From NCBI GenBank assembly GCA_021848555.1, contig JAJZUN010000214.1:1-5162 (forward strand): a stretch of 5,162 nucleotides of DNA. Reading direction: 5' to 3'. The stretch comes from Pseudomonadota bacterium (lineage in GTDB: Bacteria; Pseudomonadota; Gammaproteobacteria; Burkholderiales; SG8-39). Position 1 is the stretch's first letter. Each line of letters begins with the position of its first letter. Position numbers and translations under genes: made by a program. The notes beneath the pieces are model-generated. The model was not told the DNA's origin and made no database searches. It saw nothing but the letters and a program-made list of their open reading frames with translations. Positions 1-5,162 of this stretch are shown piece by piece.

Positions 1-40
1 ATCGGCGATCTTGGATAAACCCTGGACCGTTTTTATTCAT

Positions 41-95
41 AACCGTGTTTTTCCGATACGGATACGCTTTTCATCCGTATCGGAAAAACACGGTT
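41..95. repeat. Perfect 23-bp inverted repeat upstream of livH
   Basis: The left arm at 41-63 and right arm at 73-95 are exact reverse complements over 23 bases, separated by a 9-base loop (acgcttttc). The arms begin AACCGTGTTTTTCC and end GGAAAAACACGGTT, so the RNA would form one long uninterrupted stem. It lies in the gap before livH, where a binding-protein gene often precedes the permease genes in this family. A stem here could act as a terminator or attenuator, or protect the 3' end of an upstream transcript. No U-tract directly follows the right arm, so a simple intrinsic terminator is not clear. It could also be a small dispersed palindrome. The structure is certain; its role is inference. 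Confidence 0.8.
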
Positions 96-96
96 G

Positions 97-118
97 GCGC
101 GCGCAGCGCGCAAGGTTT
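97..118 (+). terminator. Short GC hairpin with weak T-run (possible weak terminator)
   Basis: GCGCGC at 97-102 pairs with GCGCGC at 106-111 around a 3-base loop, and AAGG then TTTT follow. The stem directly follows the 23-bp palindrome and lies 23 bases before the livH start. The T-run is short and displaced by four bases, so termination would be partial at best. It may simply extend the structured leader in front of livH. Confidence 0.25.
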
Positions 119-134
119 TGTTTGAAGCACTTCC

Positions 135-1070
135 ATGACCCTCGGCCTACTTAGTCAGTACGTCTTCAACGGCTTGATGCTGGGCATGATCTACGCCATG
201 GTCGCGGTCGGGTTCACGCTGTTCTTCGGCGTGCTCGACGTGATCAAATTCTCCCACGGCGACGTGCTGATGGTGGGCGCGTTCACCGGGCTGGCGACTT
301 ACCTCGGTCTCGAGGCGCTGGGCGTCGATTCGGCGGTGGTGCAGGTGCTGGTGATGACCCTGGTCGCGACGCTGTCGATGGCGCTGCTCGGCGCGCTGAT
401 CGCGAAATACCTGGTGCTGCCGCTGCGCCTGGCGCCGCCCTTGAATACCCTGCTGATCACCCTGATGCTGGGTACGGTGCTGCGCGAGGCGGTGCGCCTG
501 TTCTACCCGCAGGGCTCCAACCCTAAACCGTTCCCGCGCCTGCTGCCGGCCGATTCCCTGAGCTTCGGCAGCTTCACCCTGCGCGCCGACAGCATGATCC
601 TGCTGCTCGCCGGGCTGGCGGCCATCGTCGCGGTGCATCTGGTGATCAACCGCACCAAGCTCGGCCTGGCGATACGCGCGGTGGCGCAGGACGCCGAGAC
701 CGCACGCATCATGGGCATCAATTTCGAATTCATCGTGCTGCTCACTTTCGCCATCGGCTCGGGCATGGCGGCGCTGGGCGGGCTGATGAACGGCCTGTAC
801 TACAACGAAATCAACTTCGGCATCGGCCTGTTGCTCGGCGTGATCGGTTTTTCCGCCGCGGTGGTCGGCGGCCTGGGCAATATCTACGGCGCCATCCTAG
901 GCGGGTTTCTGTTTTCGGCGCTGCAAAGCGTAGGCGCGGTGGCGCTGCCGGCTTTGTTTCCGGGCACCTCGACCGCCTACAAGGACGTATTCGCCTTCGC
1001 CGTGGTGATCATTTTCATGGCCTGGCGGCCGACCGGCCTGATCGCCGAGAAAAAAAGCGAGCGCGTATGA
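135..1070 (+). CDS. livH: Branched-chain amino acid ABC transporter permease LivH
   Basis: This is an inner-membrane permease of a branched-chain amino acid type (HAAT) ABC importer, which should pair with LivM to form the substrate channel. It has 311 residues, near the usual LivH length, with roughly eight hydrophobic segments. The N-terminus shows the LivH pattern: GLMLGMIYAMVAVGFTLFFG (13-32) followed by FSHGDVLMVGAF (39-50). The cytoplasmic coupling segment RAVAQDAETARIMGI (181-195) is the part that contacts an ATPase. VVGGLGNIYGAILGG (243-257) is also typical of the family. The ATG at 135 starts the protein exactly where family members begin, but no good Shine-Dalgarno sequence precedes it. 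The stop overlaps the livM start as ATGA. The substrate cannot be read from sequence: leucine, isoleucine and valine are the default, but amides or aromatic acids are also carried by such systems. UrtB of the urea system is usually much longer, so a urea role is less likely. Confidence 0.93.
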   Translation: MTLGLLSQYVFNGLMLGMIYAMVAVGFTLFFGVLDVIKFSHGDVLMVGAFTGLATYLGLEALGVDSAVVQVLVMTLVATLSMALLGALIAKYLVLPLRLAPPLNTLLITLMLGTVLREAVRLFYPQGSNPKPFPRLLPADSLSFGSFTLRADSMILLLAGLAAIVAVHLVINRTKLGLAIRAVAQDAETARIMGINFEFIVLLTFAIGSGMAALGGLMNGLYYNEINFGIGLLLGVIGFSAAVVGGLGNIYGAILGGFLFSALQSVGAVALPALFPGTSTAYKDVFAFAVVIIFMAWRPTGLIAEKKSERV

Positions 1071-2224
1071 AGCGCCTGCTCGCGCCCGCTTCGGCCTTCC
1101 CCGCGCTCGCGAGCATGGCCGGCATCACCCTGTTCTGCGTGCTGTTCCTGCACGCCGAATCGCAGGAAGAGGTCATGGGCCTCACGGTGGGGGCGGTGGT
1201 GGTGCTGTTCCTGCTCGCGCGCTTCGGCTGGAACGCGCGCGCGGCGGCCTCGTTCGCGGGCAACAGCCGCGCCGGGCAGGCCTCGGTCCTGATCGGGGTG
1301 CTGATCGTCGCCGCGGCGTTCTACGACCAGCATTTTCCGCTGCTGATGCTGACCACGGTGCTGCTCTACATCGTGGTCTGCCTCGGCCTGAACCTGCAGT
1401 TCGGCTATGCGGGGGTGGTCAATTTCGCCGGCGCGGCCTTTTTCGGCATCGGCTGCTACACCGCGGCGGTGCTGACCGAGCATACGGCGCTGCCGCATCT
1501 GCTGGTGGTGCTCATCGGCGGCGTCATGGCCGCGGCGATAGGCTCGCTCCTGATCCTGCCGGTGCTGCGCACCTACGGCCACTACGCCGCGCTGGTCACC
1601 ATCGCCTTCGGCATCCTGTTCCGCGTATTCATCGAGGTGAACGACGCCCTGGGCGGGCCGCAGGGGATGAAGCTGCCGGGGATGGAAATTTTCGGCTGGA
1701 AACTGAACGAGGGCCTCGCGTTCGGCGATAGCGAGCTGTCCTTCTACGCCAACTACCTGGTGCTCGCCCTCGCCATGGCGGCGGTCGCCTTCATGCTGGT
1801 GCGCCGCCTCGAGCGCTCCTGGATCGGCCTTGCCCTGGACGCGGTGCGGCTGGACGAGACCGCCTGCGCCGCGTTCGGCATCGACGTCGCGCGCTGGAAA
1901 ATCACCGCCTTCACCCTGGGCAATTTTCTGATCGGCCTCGCCGGTTCGGTGTACGCGATGATGACCGGCTTCGTCGCGCCGAACGCCTTCACTTTCGGCG
2001 ACTCGCTGATCCTGGTGTCCATCGTGATCCTCGGCGGCATCGGCAATCCCTGGGGGCTGACGGTGGCGGCTGCCATCGTGCTGATGCTGCCGGAGAAGCT
2101 GCAGTTCATCCAGGAATACCGCCTGCTCTTGTACGCCGGGCTGGTGATCCTGATCCTCTTGTTCCGCCCCGGCGGGCTGATGCCGCGCCAGGTGCGCAAC
2201 TATCTTCCTGGGTGGAAGCCATGA
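1067..2224 (+). CDS. livM: Branched-chain amino acid ABC transporter permease LivM
   Basis: This is the second inner-membrane permease of the importer and the partner of LivH. It has 385 residues with about ten hydrophobic segments. The family signature appears as GLNLQFGYAGVVNFAGAAFF (107-126), then FGIGCYTAAVL. The coupling loop is LDAVRLDETACAAFGIDVAR (257-276), followed by WKITAF, and the C-terminal hallmarks are ILGGIGNPWG (321-330) and LLFRPGGLMPR (364-374). Residues 1-90 form an N-terminal extension with about two extra hydrophobic stretches (about 14-30 and 38-52) and a third near 74-86, before the conserved core starts near residue 91. Long N-termini also occur in E. coli LivM. The ATG lies inside the livH stop (ATGA), and the stop overlaps the livG ATG in the same way, indicating translational coupling within one operon. 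Confidence 0.92.
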   Translation: MKRLLAPASAFPALASMAGITLFCVLFLHAESQEEVMGLTVGAVVVLFLLARFGWNARAAASFAGNSRAGQASVLIGVLIVAAAFYDQHFPLLMLTTVLLYIVVCLGLNLQFGYAGVVNFAGAAFFGIGCYTAAVLTEHTALPHLLVVLIGGVMAAAIGSLLILPVLRTYGHYAALVTIAFGILFRVFIEVNDALGGPQGMKLPGMEIFGWKLNEGLAFGDSELSFYANYLVLALAMAAVAFMLVRRLERSWIGLALDAVRLDETACAAFGIDVARWKITAFTLGNFLIGLAGSVYAMMTGFVAPNAFTFGDSLILVSIVILGGIGNPWGLTVAAAIVLMLPEKLQFIQEYRLLLYAGLVILILLFRPGGLMPRQVRNYLPGWKP

Positions 2225-2997
2225 GCGGCACGCTCCTGGCGTGCGAGCGCCTGTCGATGCGCTTCGGCGGCCTGGTGGCGCTGAACCAGTTGAGCCTGTC
2301 GGTGAACCAGGGCGAGATCCTCGGCCTGATCGGACCCAACGGCTCGGGCAAGACCACCTTCTTCAATGTGATCACCGGTATCTACCAGGCCAGCGAAGGC
2401 CGGGTCGACTACCGCGGCCACGATCTGGCCAAGATGAGCGCGCAGGAGATTTACCGCGCCGGGGTGACGCGCACCTTCCAACGCTCGCGCCTGTGCCTGC
2501 CGCTGTCGATATTCGACAATCTGATGATAGGCAACCACCGCCGGCTCGACCACGGCCTGTGGTTCAACCTCATCCGGCGCGACGCTTTCCGCCGCCAGTT
2601 CGAGGAGCAATACGCCGAAGCGCTGGCACTGGTGCGGACCTTCAGCAAGCCGCTCGCCGAGCGGCTGTTCGAGGCGGCGGGCAACGTCAACATGATAGAC
2701 CGGCGCCGCATCGAAATCTGCCGCGCCCTGATCAGCCAGCCGACCCTGCTGCTGCTGGACGAACCGTCGGCGGGCATGACGCACGAAGAGACGCGCGAGC
2801 TGATGGACGACATCCTGATCGTGCGCGAGCACATGCCCGGCCTCTCGGTCATCATCATCGAGCATGAGATGAACGTGATCGAGCGCATCACCGAACGCTG
2901 CATCGTGCTCAACTTCGGCCAGAAGATCTGCGAAGGCCCCTACGCCGAGGTCGCCGCCGACCGCGAGGTGCAGGAAGCCTACCTCGGGACCGAATGA
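2221..2997 (+). CDS. livG: Branched-chain amino acid ABC transporter ATPase LivG (atypical signature)
   Basis: This is one of the two cytoplasmic ATPases that power the LivHM channel. It has 258 residues, the usual length. Visible motifs are Walker A GPNGSGKTT (38-46), the Q-loop Gln87 in TRTFQRSR, Walker B LLLLDE (176-181), the D-loop region SAGM (183-186) and the switch His215 in IIIEHEMNVIERI. The C-terminal stretch typical of LivG, FGQKICEGPYAEV, is intact. The odd part is the ABC signature: where relatives have a LSYGDQRR- or LSYANRRR-like sequence, this protein reads NVNMIDRRRIEICRAL (155-170). The conserved Ser and Gly of LSGGQ are therefore missing, while the following RRRIEI is kept. 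I chose the ATG at 2221, which makes an ATGA overlap with livM and has GGTGGAAG just upstream. A GTG at 2212 would add three residues. Confidence 0.92.
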   Translation: MSGTLLACERLSMRFGGLVALNQLSLSVNQGEILGLIGPNGSGKTTFFNVITGIYQASEGRVDYRGHDLAKMSAQEIYRAGVTRTFQRSRLCLPLSIFDNLMIGNHRRLDHGLWFNLIRRDAFRRQFEEQYAEALALVRTFSKPLAERLFEAAGNVNMIDRRRIEICRALISQPTLLLLDEPSAGMTHEETRELMDDILIVREHMPGLSVIIIEHEMNVIERITERCIVLNFGQKICEGPYAEVAADREVQEAYLGTE

Positions 2998-3710
2998 CCA
3001 TGGCCGCGCTGCTTTCCGTCGAAAACGTGTATTCCGGCTACGACAAGGCCGACGTGCTGCAGGACGTGTCGCTGTCCGTCGCGGCGGGCAGCATCACCTG
3101 CATCCTCGGCTCCAACGGCTCGGGCAAGAGCACGCTGATCCGCGCCATCCTCCGGCTCACGCCGCCGCGCCGCGGCCGCGTGGTGTTCGACGGCAACGAC
3201 CTCGCCGGCCTGCCCACGCACCGCGTGATCAGCACCGGCATCGCCTGCATCCCCGAAGGGCGCAAGGTGTTTCCCAAGCTCTCGGTGGTCGAAAACCTGC
3301 GCCTGGGCGCCTATCAGCAGGACGATGCCGACAAGATCGCCGGCCGGTTGGAGCAGGTGTTCGGGATCTTTCCGCGCCTGGAAGAGCGCGCGGCGCAGCT
3401 CGCCGGCACCATGTCGGGCGGCGAGCAGGCGATGCTGTCGATCGGCCGCGGCATGATGGGCGAGCCGAAGCTGCTGCTGATCGACGAGCCCTCGCTAGGA
3501 CTGTCGCCGCGGCTGGTGAAAGAGAATTTCCACGTCATCCGCCGCATCAACGAACTCGGCATCACCGTCCTGCTGGTGGAGCAGAACGTGCACCAGACCC
3601 TCGCGATCGCGCACCACGGCTACGTCCTGTCGCAGGGCAGGGTAGTGGCCTCGGGGACGGCCAAGGAACTCGCCGAGAACGCCGAAGTGCGCGCGGCCTA
3701 TTTCGGCTGA
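2994..3710 (+). CDS. livF: Branched-chain amino acid ABC transporter ATPase LivF
   Basis: This is the second cytoplasmic ATPase of the importer, expected to pair with LivG beneath LivHM. It has 238 residues, the normal LivF length. Motifs are Walker A GSNGSGKST (39-47), the LivF-specific IPEGRKVFPKLSVVENL (86-102) in the Q-loop region, a complete signature MSGGEQAML (140-148), Walker B LLIDEP (161-166) and SLGLSP (167-172). The switch position reads LLVEQNVHQTL, with Gln in place of His, which is the usual state in LivF. The intact signature here contrasts with the degenerate one in LivG. The start at 2994 gives an ATGA overlap with livG like the two upstream junctions. A second ATG at 3000 is equally possible and would shorten the protein by two residues. 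It is the last gene of the operon; a palindromic repeat follows the stop. Confidence 0.93.
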   Translation: MTMAALLSVENVYSGYDKADVLQDVSLSVAAGSITCILGSNGSGKSTLIRAILRLTPPRRGRVVFDGNDLAGLPTHRVISTGIACIPEGRKVFPKLSVVENLRLGAYQQDDADKIAGRLEQVFGIFPRLEERAAQLAGTMSGGEQAMLSIGRGMMGEPKLLLIDEPSLGLSPRLVKENFHVIRRINELGITVLLVEQNVHQTLAIAHHGYVLSQGRVVASGTAKELAENAEVRAAYFG

Positions 3711-3723
3711 GAGCGCATTCCCA

Positions 3724-3803
3724 CGCCCCGCTTGCGGGAGGATAGACAGCTTAGAAGACCGTCCCCTCGCCCCGCTTGCGGGGAGAGGGCCAGGGTGAGG
3801 GGA
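3724..3803. repeat. Palindromic dispersed intergenic repeat after livF
   Basis: Two copies of CGCCCCGCTTGCGGG occur at 3724-3738 and 3768-3782. Each folds on itself. In the second copy the stem extends: CCCTC (3764-3768) pairs with GAGGG (3785-3789) around CCCCGC/GCGGGG (3770-3775 with 3778-3783), with one G-A mismatch. GAGGGG at 3797-3802 offers an alternative partner for CCCCTC. On the minus strand the element reads CCCTCACCCTGGCCCTCTCC and continues into CCGCAAGCGGGGCGAGGGG. From general knowledge this resembles a family of intergenic palindromes found in many copies in beta- and gammaproteobacterial genomes. It may block or weaken transcription leaving livF, but there is no T-run. Confidence 0.75.
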
Positions 3804-3853
3804 AAACCTGTCATGCACCTTCCATGAAAATTCACTCTGCAACAGACTCTAAA

Positions 3854-4456
3854 ATGTCTCCACGCCCCACCGTCATCTTCGATCTCGGCGGCGTCCTCGT
3901 CAGCGTCGACTTCATGCGCGCCTGCAAGCGCCTCGAGGCCGCCGGCGGCGCAACGGCGGCAGTCATACTCGAGACCATCGCCAGCGGCGCGGACAAACTC
4001 GCCTTTGACACCGGCCGCCTGAGCCCGCAGCAGTTCGCCGCGCGCTTTTGCGCCGCCATCGGCGTGCGCACTCCGTACACCGAGTTCGCCGACATCTGGT
4101 GCGACATCTTCGCCGAGCAGCGCGAGGTCACGAGCCTGCTGGATCAGATCGCAGCCAAAGCCGACCTGGTGCTGCTGTCGAACACCGATCCCCTGCATCT
4201 CGACTACGTACGCAGCCATTACCGCTTCCTGGAAAAGTTCGGACGGCTGGTGCTTTCCTACGAAGTCGGCCATGCTAAGCCGGCGCGCGAGATCTTCCAA
4301 CGCGCAATCGGCCTGTGCGCCCCGGGAACCCGGATGATCTACTTCGACGACGTGCCCGAGTACGTCTCGGCCGCGCGTGCCTGCGGTTTGCCGGCGGAAC
4401 AGTTCGTCGATGCGGTCAAGCTCAGGCGCGATCTCGAGCGGTTCGGGGTGCTGTAA
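3854..4456 (+). CDS. HAD-superfamily hydrolase, YihX-like
   Basis: This is a probable cytoplasmic phosphatase of the haloacid dehalogenase superfamily. It has 200 residues, the usual length for subfamily IA. Motif I is VIFDLGGVLV with the nucleophile Asp10; motif II is LLSNTD with Ser109; motif III is Lys142 in HAKPAREIFQ; motif IV is FDDVPEYVSAA with Asp165 and Asp166. The helical cap lies between motifs I and II (about 18-95). The usual second Asp of DxD is Gly12, as in E. coli YihX (FDLGN), a sugar-phosphate phosphatase that is active with that change. The substrate is not predictable from sequence. The ATG at 3854 puts motif I at the expected place. An in-frame ATG at 3824 would add ten residues without family character, and the TTG at 3776 lies inside the repeat. 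None has a clear ribosome binding site. The 143-base gap from livF suggests a separate function and perhaps a separate transcript. Confidence 0.85.
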   Translation: MSPRPTVIFDLGGVLVSVDFMRACKRLEAAGGATAAVILETIASGADKLAFDTGRLSPQQFAARFCAAIGVRTPYTEFADIWCDIFAEQREVTSLLDQIAAKADLVLLSNTDPLHLDYVRSHYRFLEKFGRLVLSYEVGHAKPAREIFQRAIGLCAPGTRMIYFDDVPEYVSAARACGLPAEQFVDAVKLRRDLERFGVL

Positions 4457-4620
4457 GCGCCATACTCGGCTCGTGAGATGTCGCCGATGCCCTCACCCAG
4501 TCGAGCAAGCGTGGTGACCGCACGACAACCATCGGCGGGGGCTATTTCGACGGAGTGTGCAGGTGCCTATCCCAGTTAACGAGATTGAGGAATCAATGAC
4601 ATGGGCGTAACCTGACCGTG
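4457..4620. other. Intergenic stretch between the HAD gene and the cassette
   Basis: I see no gene here. There is an interrupted inverted repeat: CGCCGATG (4482-4489) with CATCGGCG (4530-4537), enclosing TCACC (4493-4497) with GGTGA (4513-4517). The spacers are unequal and no T-run follows, so I do not call a terminator. If the downstream element is an integron cassette, its left neighbour (an attI, a degenerate attC or a secondary target) should lie in the right part of this stretch. I found no clear R''-type core (RYYYAAC) that pairs with the bases just before 4620, so a preceding attC is not supported. Confidence 0.5.
4585..4613 (+). promoter_or_regulatory. Possible weak sigma-70 promoter before the cassette
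   Basis: TTGAGG (4585-4590, four of six matches to TTGACA) and TAACCT (4608-4613, three of six to TATAAT) are separated by 17 bases, the preferred spacing. Transcription would start near 4620, just at the cassette boundary, and read the 144-codon gene. The -10 match is poor, so this is tentative. Confidence 0.22.
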
Positions 4621-4626
4621 TTAGAC
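4620..4626 (+). other. Left core site of the cassette (GTTAGAC)
   Basis: GTTAGAC fits the integron core consensus GTTRRRY exactly. Recombination would fall between G4620 and T4621. Its reverse complement, GTCTAAC, differs at one base from GTCTAGC at 5095-5101, the inner core of the attC at the other end. In a circular cassette these two would be the paired R' and R'' boxes of a single attC. Confidence 0.6.
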
Positions 4627-4632
4627 ACCACA

Positions 4633-4650
4633 AACACAGGGAACACAGGG
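4633..4650 (+). repeat. Tandem AACACAGGG repeat in the cassette leader
   Basis: The 9-mer AACACAGGG occurs twice head to tail (4633-4641 and 4642-4650) directly before the start codon, and the second copy supplies the GGG of the ribosome binding site. On the minus strand this reads CTCCCTGTGTTCCCTGTGTT, similar to the CTCTGTG-type dispersed sequences seen between genes in many environmental bacteria (general recollection, not a search). Confidence 0.7.
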
Positions 4651-4652
4651 AG
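4648..4652 (+). promoter_or_regulatory. Ribosome binding site GGGAG deciding the cassette ORF start
   Basis: GGGAG lies six bases before the ATG at 4659. It is one of the clearest Shine-Dalgarno sequences in the window and fixes the start of the 144-residue protein. Confidence 0.6.
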
Positions 4653-4658
4653 AGAAAC

Positions 4659-5093
4659 ATGGATCCACTTCTGAGCACGCTCTCGCAGCTTGGTCTCGGC
4701 CTTGCGACAAACGCTGTTTACGATCTCCTAAGAGGGCTTGCGGGAAAATCGGCTAACACGCAGCAAGTGGCCCAGGAGATTCAGAGCCGCATAAACATGT
4801 ACGGTGTGTCCATGCGTGCAGAAACCGTTATCAACGCGCTTGCGCAAAATGGGTTTCTGGTAATTGAACAATCACATCTCCACGGCAACCAAGGCTTGGT
4901 ATTTGGCAGCGTACAAGGTAGCGCAGTTGTGGGGAACAACAGCGCATTGACAACCAACAATACTGCTATCACTGCAGGCAGTGGCGCATTTATGGAAACC
5001 CAAGGAAATGCGCAGGTTCGCCAGAATCCTGATGGCAGTATTTCGTTCCACGTCGGCGAAAATGGCAATATCAATTTCAAAGTCCCCAAGTGA
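4659..5093 (+). CDS. Unrecognised cassette-borne protein, helical head with Gly/Asn-rich tail
   Basis: I do not recognise this 144-residue protein. The N-terminus (MDPLLSTLSQLGLGLATNAV, then YDLLRGLAG) is a hydrophobic or amphipathic helix without a typical signal peptide: there is no basic start and no cleavage motif. Residues 35-70 look like two or three helices followed by a strand (QQVAQEIQSRINMYGVSMRA, ETVINALAQNGFLVIE), which could be a small winged-helix-like fold. From about residue 72 the sequence becomes rich in Gly, Asn, Ser and Thr with alternating small and hydrophobic residues (GNQGLVFGSVQGSAVVGNN, NTAITAGSGAFMETQGNAQV). This suggests short beta-strands or a small beta-solenoid. 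It ends in a charged strand pair (DGSISFHVGENGNINFKVPK). The start is set by a good ribosome binding site, and the stop is one base before the attC. Coding is supported by the ORF filling the cassette and by the ribosome binding site. Function is unknown; any role in defence or a toxin-type system would be speculation. Confidence 0.7.
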   Translation: MDPLLSTLSQLGLGLATNAVYDLLRGLAGKSANTQQVAQEIQSRINMYGVSMRAETVINALAQNGFLVIEQSHLHGNQGLVFGSVQGSAVVGNNSALTTNNTAITAGSGAFMETQGNAQVRQNPDGSISFHVGENGNINFKVPK

Positions 5094-5094
5094 G

Positions 5095-5151
5095 GTCTAG
5101 CAAGCCATCGGAGCGGACGCCTATCGGCGCCGCACAATTCGAGCGTTAGCT
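5095..5151 (+). other. attC-like integron recombination site
   Basis: The boxes run in attC order. R'' is GTCTAGC (5095-5101), followed by an 11-base spacer, then L'' as GCGG (5113-5116), a bulged A (5117) and CGCC (5118-5121). A TATC loop follows, then L' as GGCG (5126-5129) and CCGC (5130-5133), a second 11-base spacer (ACAATTCGAGC), and R' as GTTAGCT (5145-5151). The arm is fully paired except for the single extrahelical A, the feature that orients attC strands for the integrase. The end AATTCGAGCGTTAG closely resembles the AATTCAAGCGTTAG end of well-known resistance-cassette attC sites. Deviations are TAGC instead of TAAC in R'' and a C at the third RRR position of R'. At 57 bp it is at the short end of the attC range. 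An ATG at 5155 just beyond it may open the next cassette gene, but only eight bases of it are in view. Confidence 0.72.
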
Positions 5152-5162
5152 GTCATGAAAGC

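Follow-up and report, generated by a model that had tools for sequence, protein, structure and literature searches.

A very probable integron gene cassette with one foreign ORF beside a chromosomal HAD-family gene in a Burkholderiales-type bacterium

At the right-hand end of a 5,162-nucleotide stretch of bacterial DNA (contig JAJZUN010000214.1 of GenBank assembly GCA_021848555.1, positions 1 to 5,162 of the forward strand; hereafter the window), a short segment of lower GC content lies beside a chromosomal gene for a HAD-family hydrolase. The locus raises the question of whether this segment is an integron gene cassette and, if so, by which route it could have come to lie in a chromosomal stretch with no integron-integrase gene in view. 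The original prediction had described a single-ORF cassette at 4621-5145 beside the HAD gene, and each element of the anatomy that it proposed is present, to the base. Taken together, an attC-type site after the stop codon, a left core that matches the expectation for a circular intermediate, a foreign composition, signs of purifying selection and, at another locus, a homologue of the ORF that precedes a clear attC make it very probable that 4621-5145 is a genuine integron gene cassette with one foreign ORF in the chromosome of an uncultured Burkholderiales-type bacterium.

Chromosomal setting and cassette anatomy

The genes, the cassette and its sites all read on the forward strand of the window. 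The left part is occupied by genes of a branched-chain amino acid ABC transporter (135-3710), comprising two permeases and two ATPases with Pfam matches to PF02653, PF00005 and PF12399. These are followed by the HAD-family hydrolase gene (3854-4456, with the start taken at 3854; PF00702, E 1.3e-9), whose protein has a Burkholderiales MAG as its closest organism-named match among 120 listed homologues. From the end of the HAD gene at 4456 to the left core site at 4620 there are 164 bases. No integron-integrase gene was found in the window, including the 4.6 kb to the left of the cassette, and an Rfam scan of the window gave nothing above the gathering score.

The cassette itself measures 525 bp (4621-5145). 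Its GC content of 0.520 compares with 0.649 for positions 1-4456 and lies under that of every 525-base stretch in that part of the window, the lowest of which has 0.598, in agreement with the lower GC noticed originally. On the left, the cassette begins at a core site, G/TTAGAC (4620-4626), where the slash marks the cut between 4620 and 4621. The leader from the cut site to the ATG comprises 38 bases and contains the ribosome binding site AGGGAGA (4647-4653), read from the sequence and placed five bases 5' of the ATG. A single ORF (4659-5093) encodes a protein of 144 amino acids. One base past its stop codon, and in the sense strand, begins the attC site (5095-5151), with the R'' box GTCTAGC at 5095-5101 and the R' box GTTAGCT at 5145-5151. 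Between the two boxes, positions 5113-5133 form a hairpin, GCGG(A)CGCC-TATC-GGCGCCGC, with one extrahelical A at 5117. The left core, the ribosome binding site and the attC-like site directly after the stop had all been pointed out in the original prediction, and all three are present. Another 11 bases follow the attC before the window ends, and the last 17 bases (5146-5162, TTAGCTGTCATGAAAGC) may be the start of a next cassette or chromosomal DNA. A promoter consensus scan found none, where shuffles average 0.4, and a terminator search also found none. Expression would rely on read-through or on a promoter missed by the consensus scan.

Judged by its codon composition, the ORF is foreign to the host, since its GC3 of 0.531 lies far below the 0.841-0.922 of five neighbouring host genes. 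By the measure of substitution rates, the protein is conserved and under purifying selection, because comparison of the window gene with three homologous genes gives pN of 0.09-0.13 against pS of 0.77-0.84 (saturated). A structure model based on 71 homologues (pLDDT 87.3, pTM 0.60) predicts four N-terminal helices (residues about 1-65) followed by short strands in the C-terminal region (67-141). In the libraries searched, the protein has no significant match to resistance families or other known families, and the view that this is not a recognised resistance gene holds. Altogether, 130 homologues of the ORF were found, of which 120 were listed. The ORF is a member of an unnamed protein family, which at some of the loci examined is borne on cassettes.

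Evidence for the two ends

The attC site was assessed with two covariance models trained on DNA beside integron-integrase genes, taken from genomes of the order of L001, a locus with a homologous ORF, and from G002, the genome of a second such locus (L002); the window was not used. The first sites were found by motif and pairing, with an R''/R' complementarity of at least 5 required, a rule that favours the right-hand match, and sites longer than 92 bases or containing N were excluded from the list. The first model (R1) was built from 20 of the 25 listed sites, five long or odd ones being dropped and one trimmed, with a structure set by the author from the alignment. Within this alignment, 90.2% of cells pair; shuffled versions reach 79.7%, and sliding the partners leaves no more than 48.3%. 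Three of five covariation measures beat all 500 shuffles, while the fourth was reached by 47 of 500 and the fifth by 413 of 500. R1, applied to 23 regions with an E limit of 0.05, harvested 132 sites, from which the second model (R2) was built.

In the window, R1 places 5095-5150 at the top of its ranking yet gives it 8.3 bits only, with E-values, rough for both models, of 0.4 for the window and 6.2 for 15 loci. R2 scores 5095-5151 at 19.5 bits, with rough E-values of 0.0048 when 15 loci (81 kb) are searched and 4.2e-5 when the search is confined to 4457-5162 (706 bases), filters off. A covariance-model match at this position had been named as the check on the site, and these models, which are the authors' own and not those of IntegronFinder or HattCI, supply it with R2 and, weakly, with R1. 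Across 85 control loci amounting to 542 kb, the highest R2 score was 15.1 bits, obtained with speed filters on, which can lose weak matches; the loci comprise 60 of 74 phage loci and 25 nrdB loci, with no prior integron screening. A further 69 kb searched with filters off gave a maximum of 9.8 bits apart from the known site in L002. The single-strand fold of the window site is unremarkable, its folding energy being matched by 28 and 26 of 200 shuffles.

The consensus for attC boxes is RYYYAAC for R'' and GTTRRRY for R'. Taken strictly, the left core GTTAGAC of the window fits this consensus, while R'' (GTCTAGC) and the right R' (GTTAGCT) are each one base off, and R'' has a G where 20 of 20 aligned sites have an A. 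At the position read in the 132 training sites, AAC is found in 113 and GTT in 111, so deviants do occur among model hits. As far as the available text of the sources goes, recognition by IntI1 needs only a conserved GNT, extendable to GTTRRRY (PMC10127599), and attC sites have been reported in phages (PMC9892861). The attC of the window is imperfect, and since its R'' ends in AGC instead of AAC, it may recombine poorly today.

The left end can be approached through the circular form of the element. When a cassette is circularised, its left core becomes the R' of its own attC, and R'' should therefore pair better with the left core than with the right one. The R'' of the window pairs with the left core at six of seven positions (seven of seven with G.T) and with the right core at four of seven. 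A filter for well-formed cores retained 72 training cassettes out of 110 consecutive pairs. In these 72, R'' is complementary to the left core at 6.72 of seven positions on average (56 of the 72 perfect) and to the right core at 5.61, with random pairing giving 5.42. The unfiltered set of 110 pairs, badly aligned ends included, gives means of 5.64 for the left and 5.15 for the right, with the left better in 68 pairs, equal in 19 and worse in 23. In the 60 bases before the ATG, a GTT core that matches as well as that of the window occurs in 0.115% of mononucleotide shuffles, and none was seen in 4765 overlapping real 60-base stretches. Each end of the segment 4621-5145 thus has its own line of support, the right end through the attC model score and the left end through the match between R'' and the left core. 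This match serves as a second test alongside the attC model, and together the two allow both boundaries of a single cassette to be recognised in a short window with nothing but its sequence. Among the homologues the signature is weak or absent, with left cores chosen by eye giving five for the left and four for the right in L002, five for the left in L001, and three for the left and four for the right in the phage locus L004.

Two core-like boxes around the left cassette end (4604-4626, GGCGTAACCTGACCGTGTTAGAC) form a weak inverted pair that resembles a simple attI-type site. At 6.9 bits and E 0.11, this pair was not taken as significant.

Homologues and relatives

The DNA context was examined for six copies of the ORF besides that of the window (L001, L002, L003, L187, L004 and L005), of which L004 and L005 are two contigs of one phage type. 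No homologue was found among plasmids or in the annotated phage collection, and two contigs of IMG/VR contain one. In L002, the homologous ORF is followed directly by an attC of 31.0 bits (R2), and the next gene matches a HEPN family below the cut-off. In the genome of this locus the ORF lies on contig C1, while contig C5 shows a match to integron integrase that exceeds the cut-off. On C5, the integrase match is split (L006, G002:C5:189683-190539; model positions 1-231 and 260-315), perhaps reflecting a broken gene, and it adjoins an attC array in L022.

The L001 homologue, from a Burkholderiales MAG, has 80% identity and is one of several cassette-like ORFs in a 3.5 kb insertion (L001:4557-8068) that separates nrdA from nrdB; in the relative G543 these two genes are about 0.1 kb apart. 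The insert is absent from all four relatives fetched, out of 60 genomes with an nrdB match. Two attC-like matches in it score 15.8 and 12.1 bits, close to or under the best control score of 15.1 bits, and no integron-integrase match over the cut-off was found in the genome of L001. Among its neighbours are a Tlde1-domain protein and a GIY-YIG match below the cut-off. L001 resembles the window in having a homologous ORF and an attC-like remnant in a foreign chromosomal insertion, and differs from it in having several ORFs, degraded attC-like matches and another chromosomal site.

The phage copies L004 and L005 have phage genes on either side, and the region they occupy varies among related phages; in L005 (4776-5581), this is a variable accessory-gene spot extending from a phage gene to an HU/IHF-like gene, with other sequence in its place in related phages. 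For L002 and the phage copy no clean empty site was seen, their flanks being replaced by other sequence. In L187 (1-5630), the homologue is beside a TacA-type antitoxin, whose partner, named by reading, is presumably acetyltransferase-like, and a Gp49-like/HTH pair. The best attC match in L187, at 11.5 bits, is unconvincing, and L003 has no R2 attC match below E 6. Since the copies in the phage contigs, L003 and L187 show no significant attC match with R2, the gene is not always cassette-borne.

Turning to the relatives of the host, no homologue of the ORF was found in the 98 genomes of the nearest family found, which is the family of G334. As a control, the same query matched three of the four genomes given, and across the order it matched two of 399 genomes, one being G001. 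An orthologue of the HAD gene is present in nine of the 98 genomes. In each of these nine relatives the DNA downstream of the HAD gene differs from that of the window, which marks the place as variable, and no empty site for the window cassette could be read among them. An ORF conserved together with its flanks in all relatives, and with normal codon usage, had been named as the observation that would speak against a cassette; with none of 98 genomes having the ORF, nine having the HAD gene and codons that are foreign, this is not what is seen. In one relative (L016), an ORF named by reading as thioesterase-like follows the HAD gene, between GTTAGCC and CGCCTAAC; around it, R2 gave no match up to E 10.

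Integron-integrase matches (E up to 1e-60) are found in 148 of the 399 sampled genomes of the order, 144 of them over the family cut-off. By itself, the element of the window is therefore ordinary. The genomes with such a match include G334, which by its HAD orthologue is one of the two closest relatives.

Routes of arrival and possible meaning

With the gene cassettes of chromosomal integrons in the order of L001, the window segment has in common one ORF, a short leader, an attC after the stop and G/TT boundaries. It departs from them in its R'' GTCTAGC, which is not RYYYAAC, and its right core GTTAGCT, and no integrase or attI is seen in the window. For the cassette to have reached its place, an integron integrase, whose gene may lie in another part of the genome, would have acted on the folded bottom strand of its attC. 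The integrase would cut at G/TT and insert the circular cassette there, leaving it either at the left-hand end of a CALIN that extends beyond the window or alone in a secondary (attG) site. In the available text of the papers that use these terms, a CALIN comprises two or more attC sites lacking an integrase (PMC9024848) and a SALIN a single such site (PMC9024848, PMC12690207). Like both, the window has an attC without an adjacent integrase gene on its visible side; it shows one attC and ends 11 bases after that site.

That the cassette is the left end of an integrase-less array (CALIN) running on to the right of the window has about an even chance of being correct. The last 17 bases read like a cassette start, with an ATG nine bases after the cut, and the L001 homologue sits inside a multi-ORF insertion with attC-like matches of 15.8 and 12.1 bits. 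However, those 17 bases are all that is visible to the right of the cut, and R2 finds no attC before the cassette in 4457-5162. The absence of both an attC and an integrase gene on the left agrees instead with a lone cassette (SALIN) that an integrase acting from elsewhere placed in a chromosomal attG site of non-classical type, for which a relative as close as G334, with its integron-integrase match, is also suggestive. Insertion into attG sites is a described process (Loot et al. 2024, as cited in the available portions of PMC12901181, PMC12444791 and PMC12690207), and as in the window, such a cassette has ordinary chromosomal genes as its neighbours and no attC to the left. With 17 bases, the right flank is nevertheless not long enough to distinguish host DNA from a second cassette, the nine relatives with a HAD orthologue provide no empty site, and the attI-like pair at 4604-4626 scores poorly (6.9 bits, E 0.11). 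With these points on either side, arrival by attG insertion is quite possible, if short of an even prospect.

Both of these routes presuppose a genuine attC. An ordinary horizontally acquired gene that happens to be followed by a hairpin with a chance likeness to attC would explain why R1 gives 8.3 bits, why the folding energy of the site is ordinary and why several homologues have no attC match. Chance would also have to account for an R2 score that exceeds everything in 542 kb of controls, for a sense-strand site that starts a single base past the stop codon and, separately, for a left core that fits R''; this reading is accordingly very improbable.

With the segment read as an integron gene cassette, the role of its ORF may be considered. 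The neighbours of the homologues, at a handful of loci, offer hints of conflict between bacteria and mobile elements. The ORF could then represent an unnamed conflict family, acting in defence or counter-defence, that moves by way of cassettes, integrase-free insertions, phage accessory spots and TA-pair neighbourhoods, with the window copy as a natural attG insertion; as a whole, this proposal is speculative and rather unlikely. If the defence reading were true, the locus would add to the cases in which cassettes stock conflict genes.

The host part of the window has two repeats that were spotted by eye. Just 5' of the first permease gene, positions 41-95 form a perfect inverted repeat with 23-base arms (AACCGTGTTTTTCCGATACGGAT; 41-63 and 73-95) and a 9-base loop, for which Rfam gives microRNA matches only, all under the gathering score. 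In the gap between the transporter and HAD genes, positions 3720-3805 hold GC-rich repeats, CCCCGCTTGCGGG twice and CAGGGTGAGGGG, which resemble a dispersed intergenic repeat.
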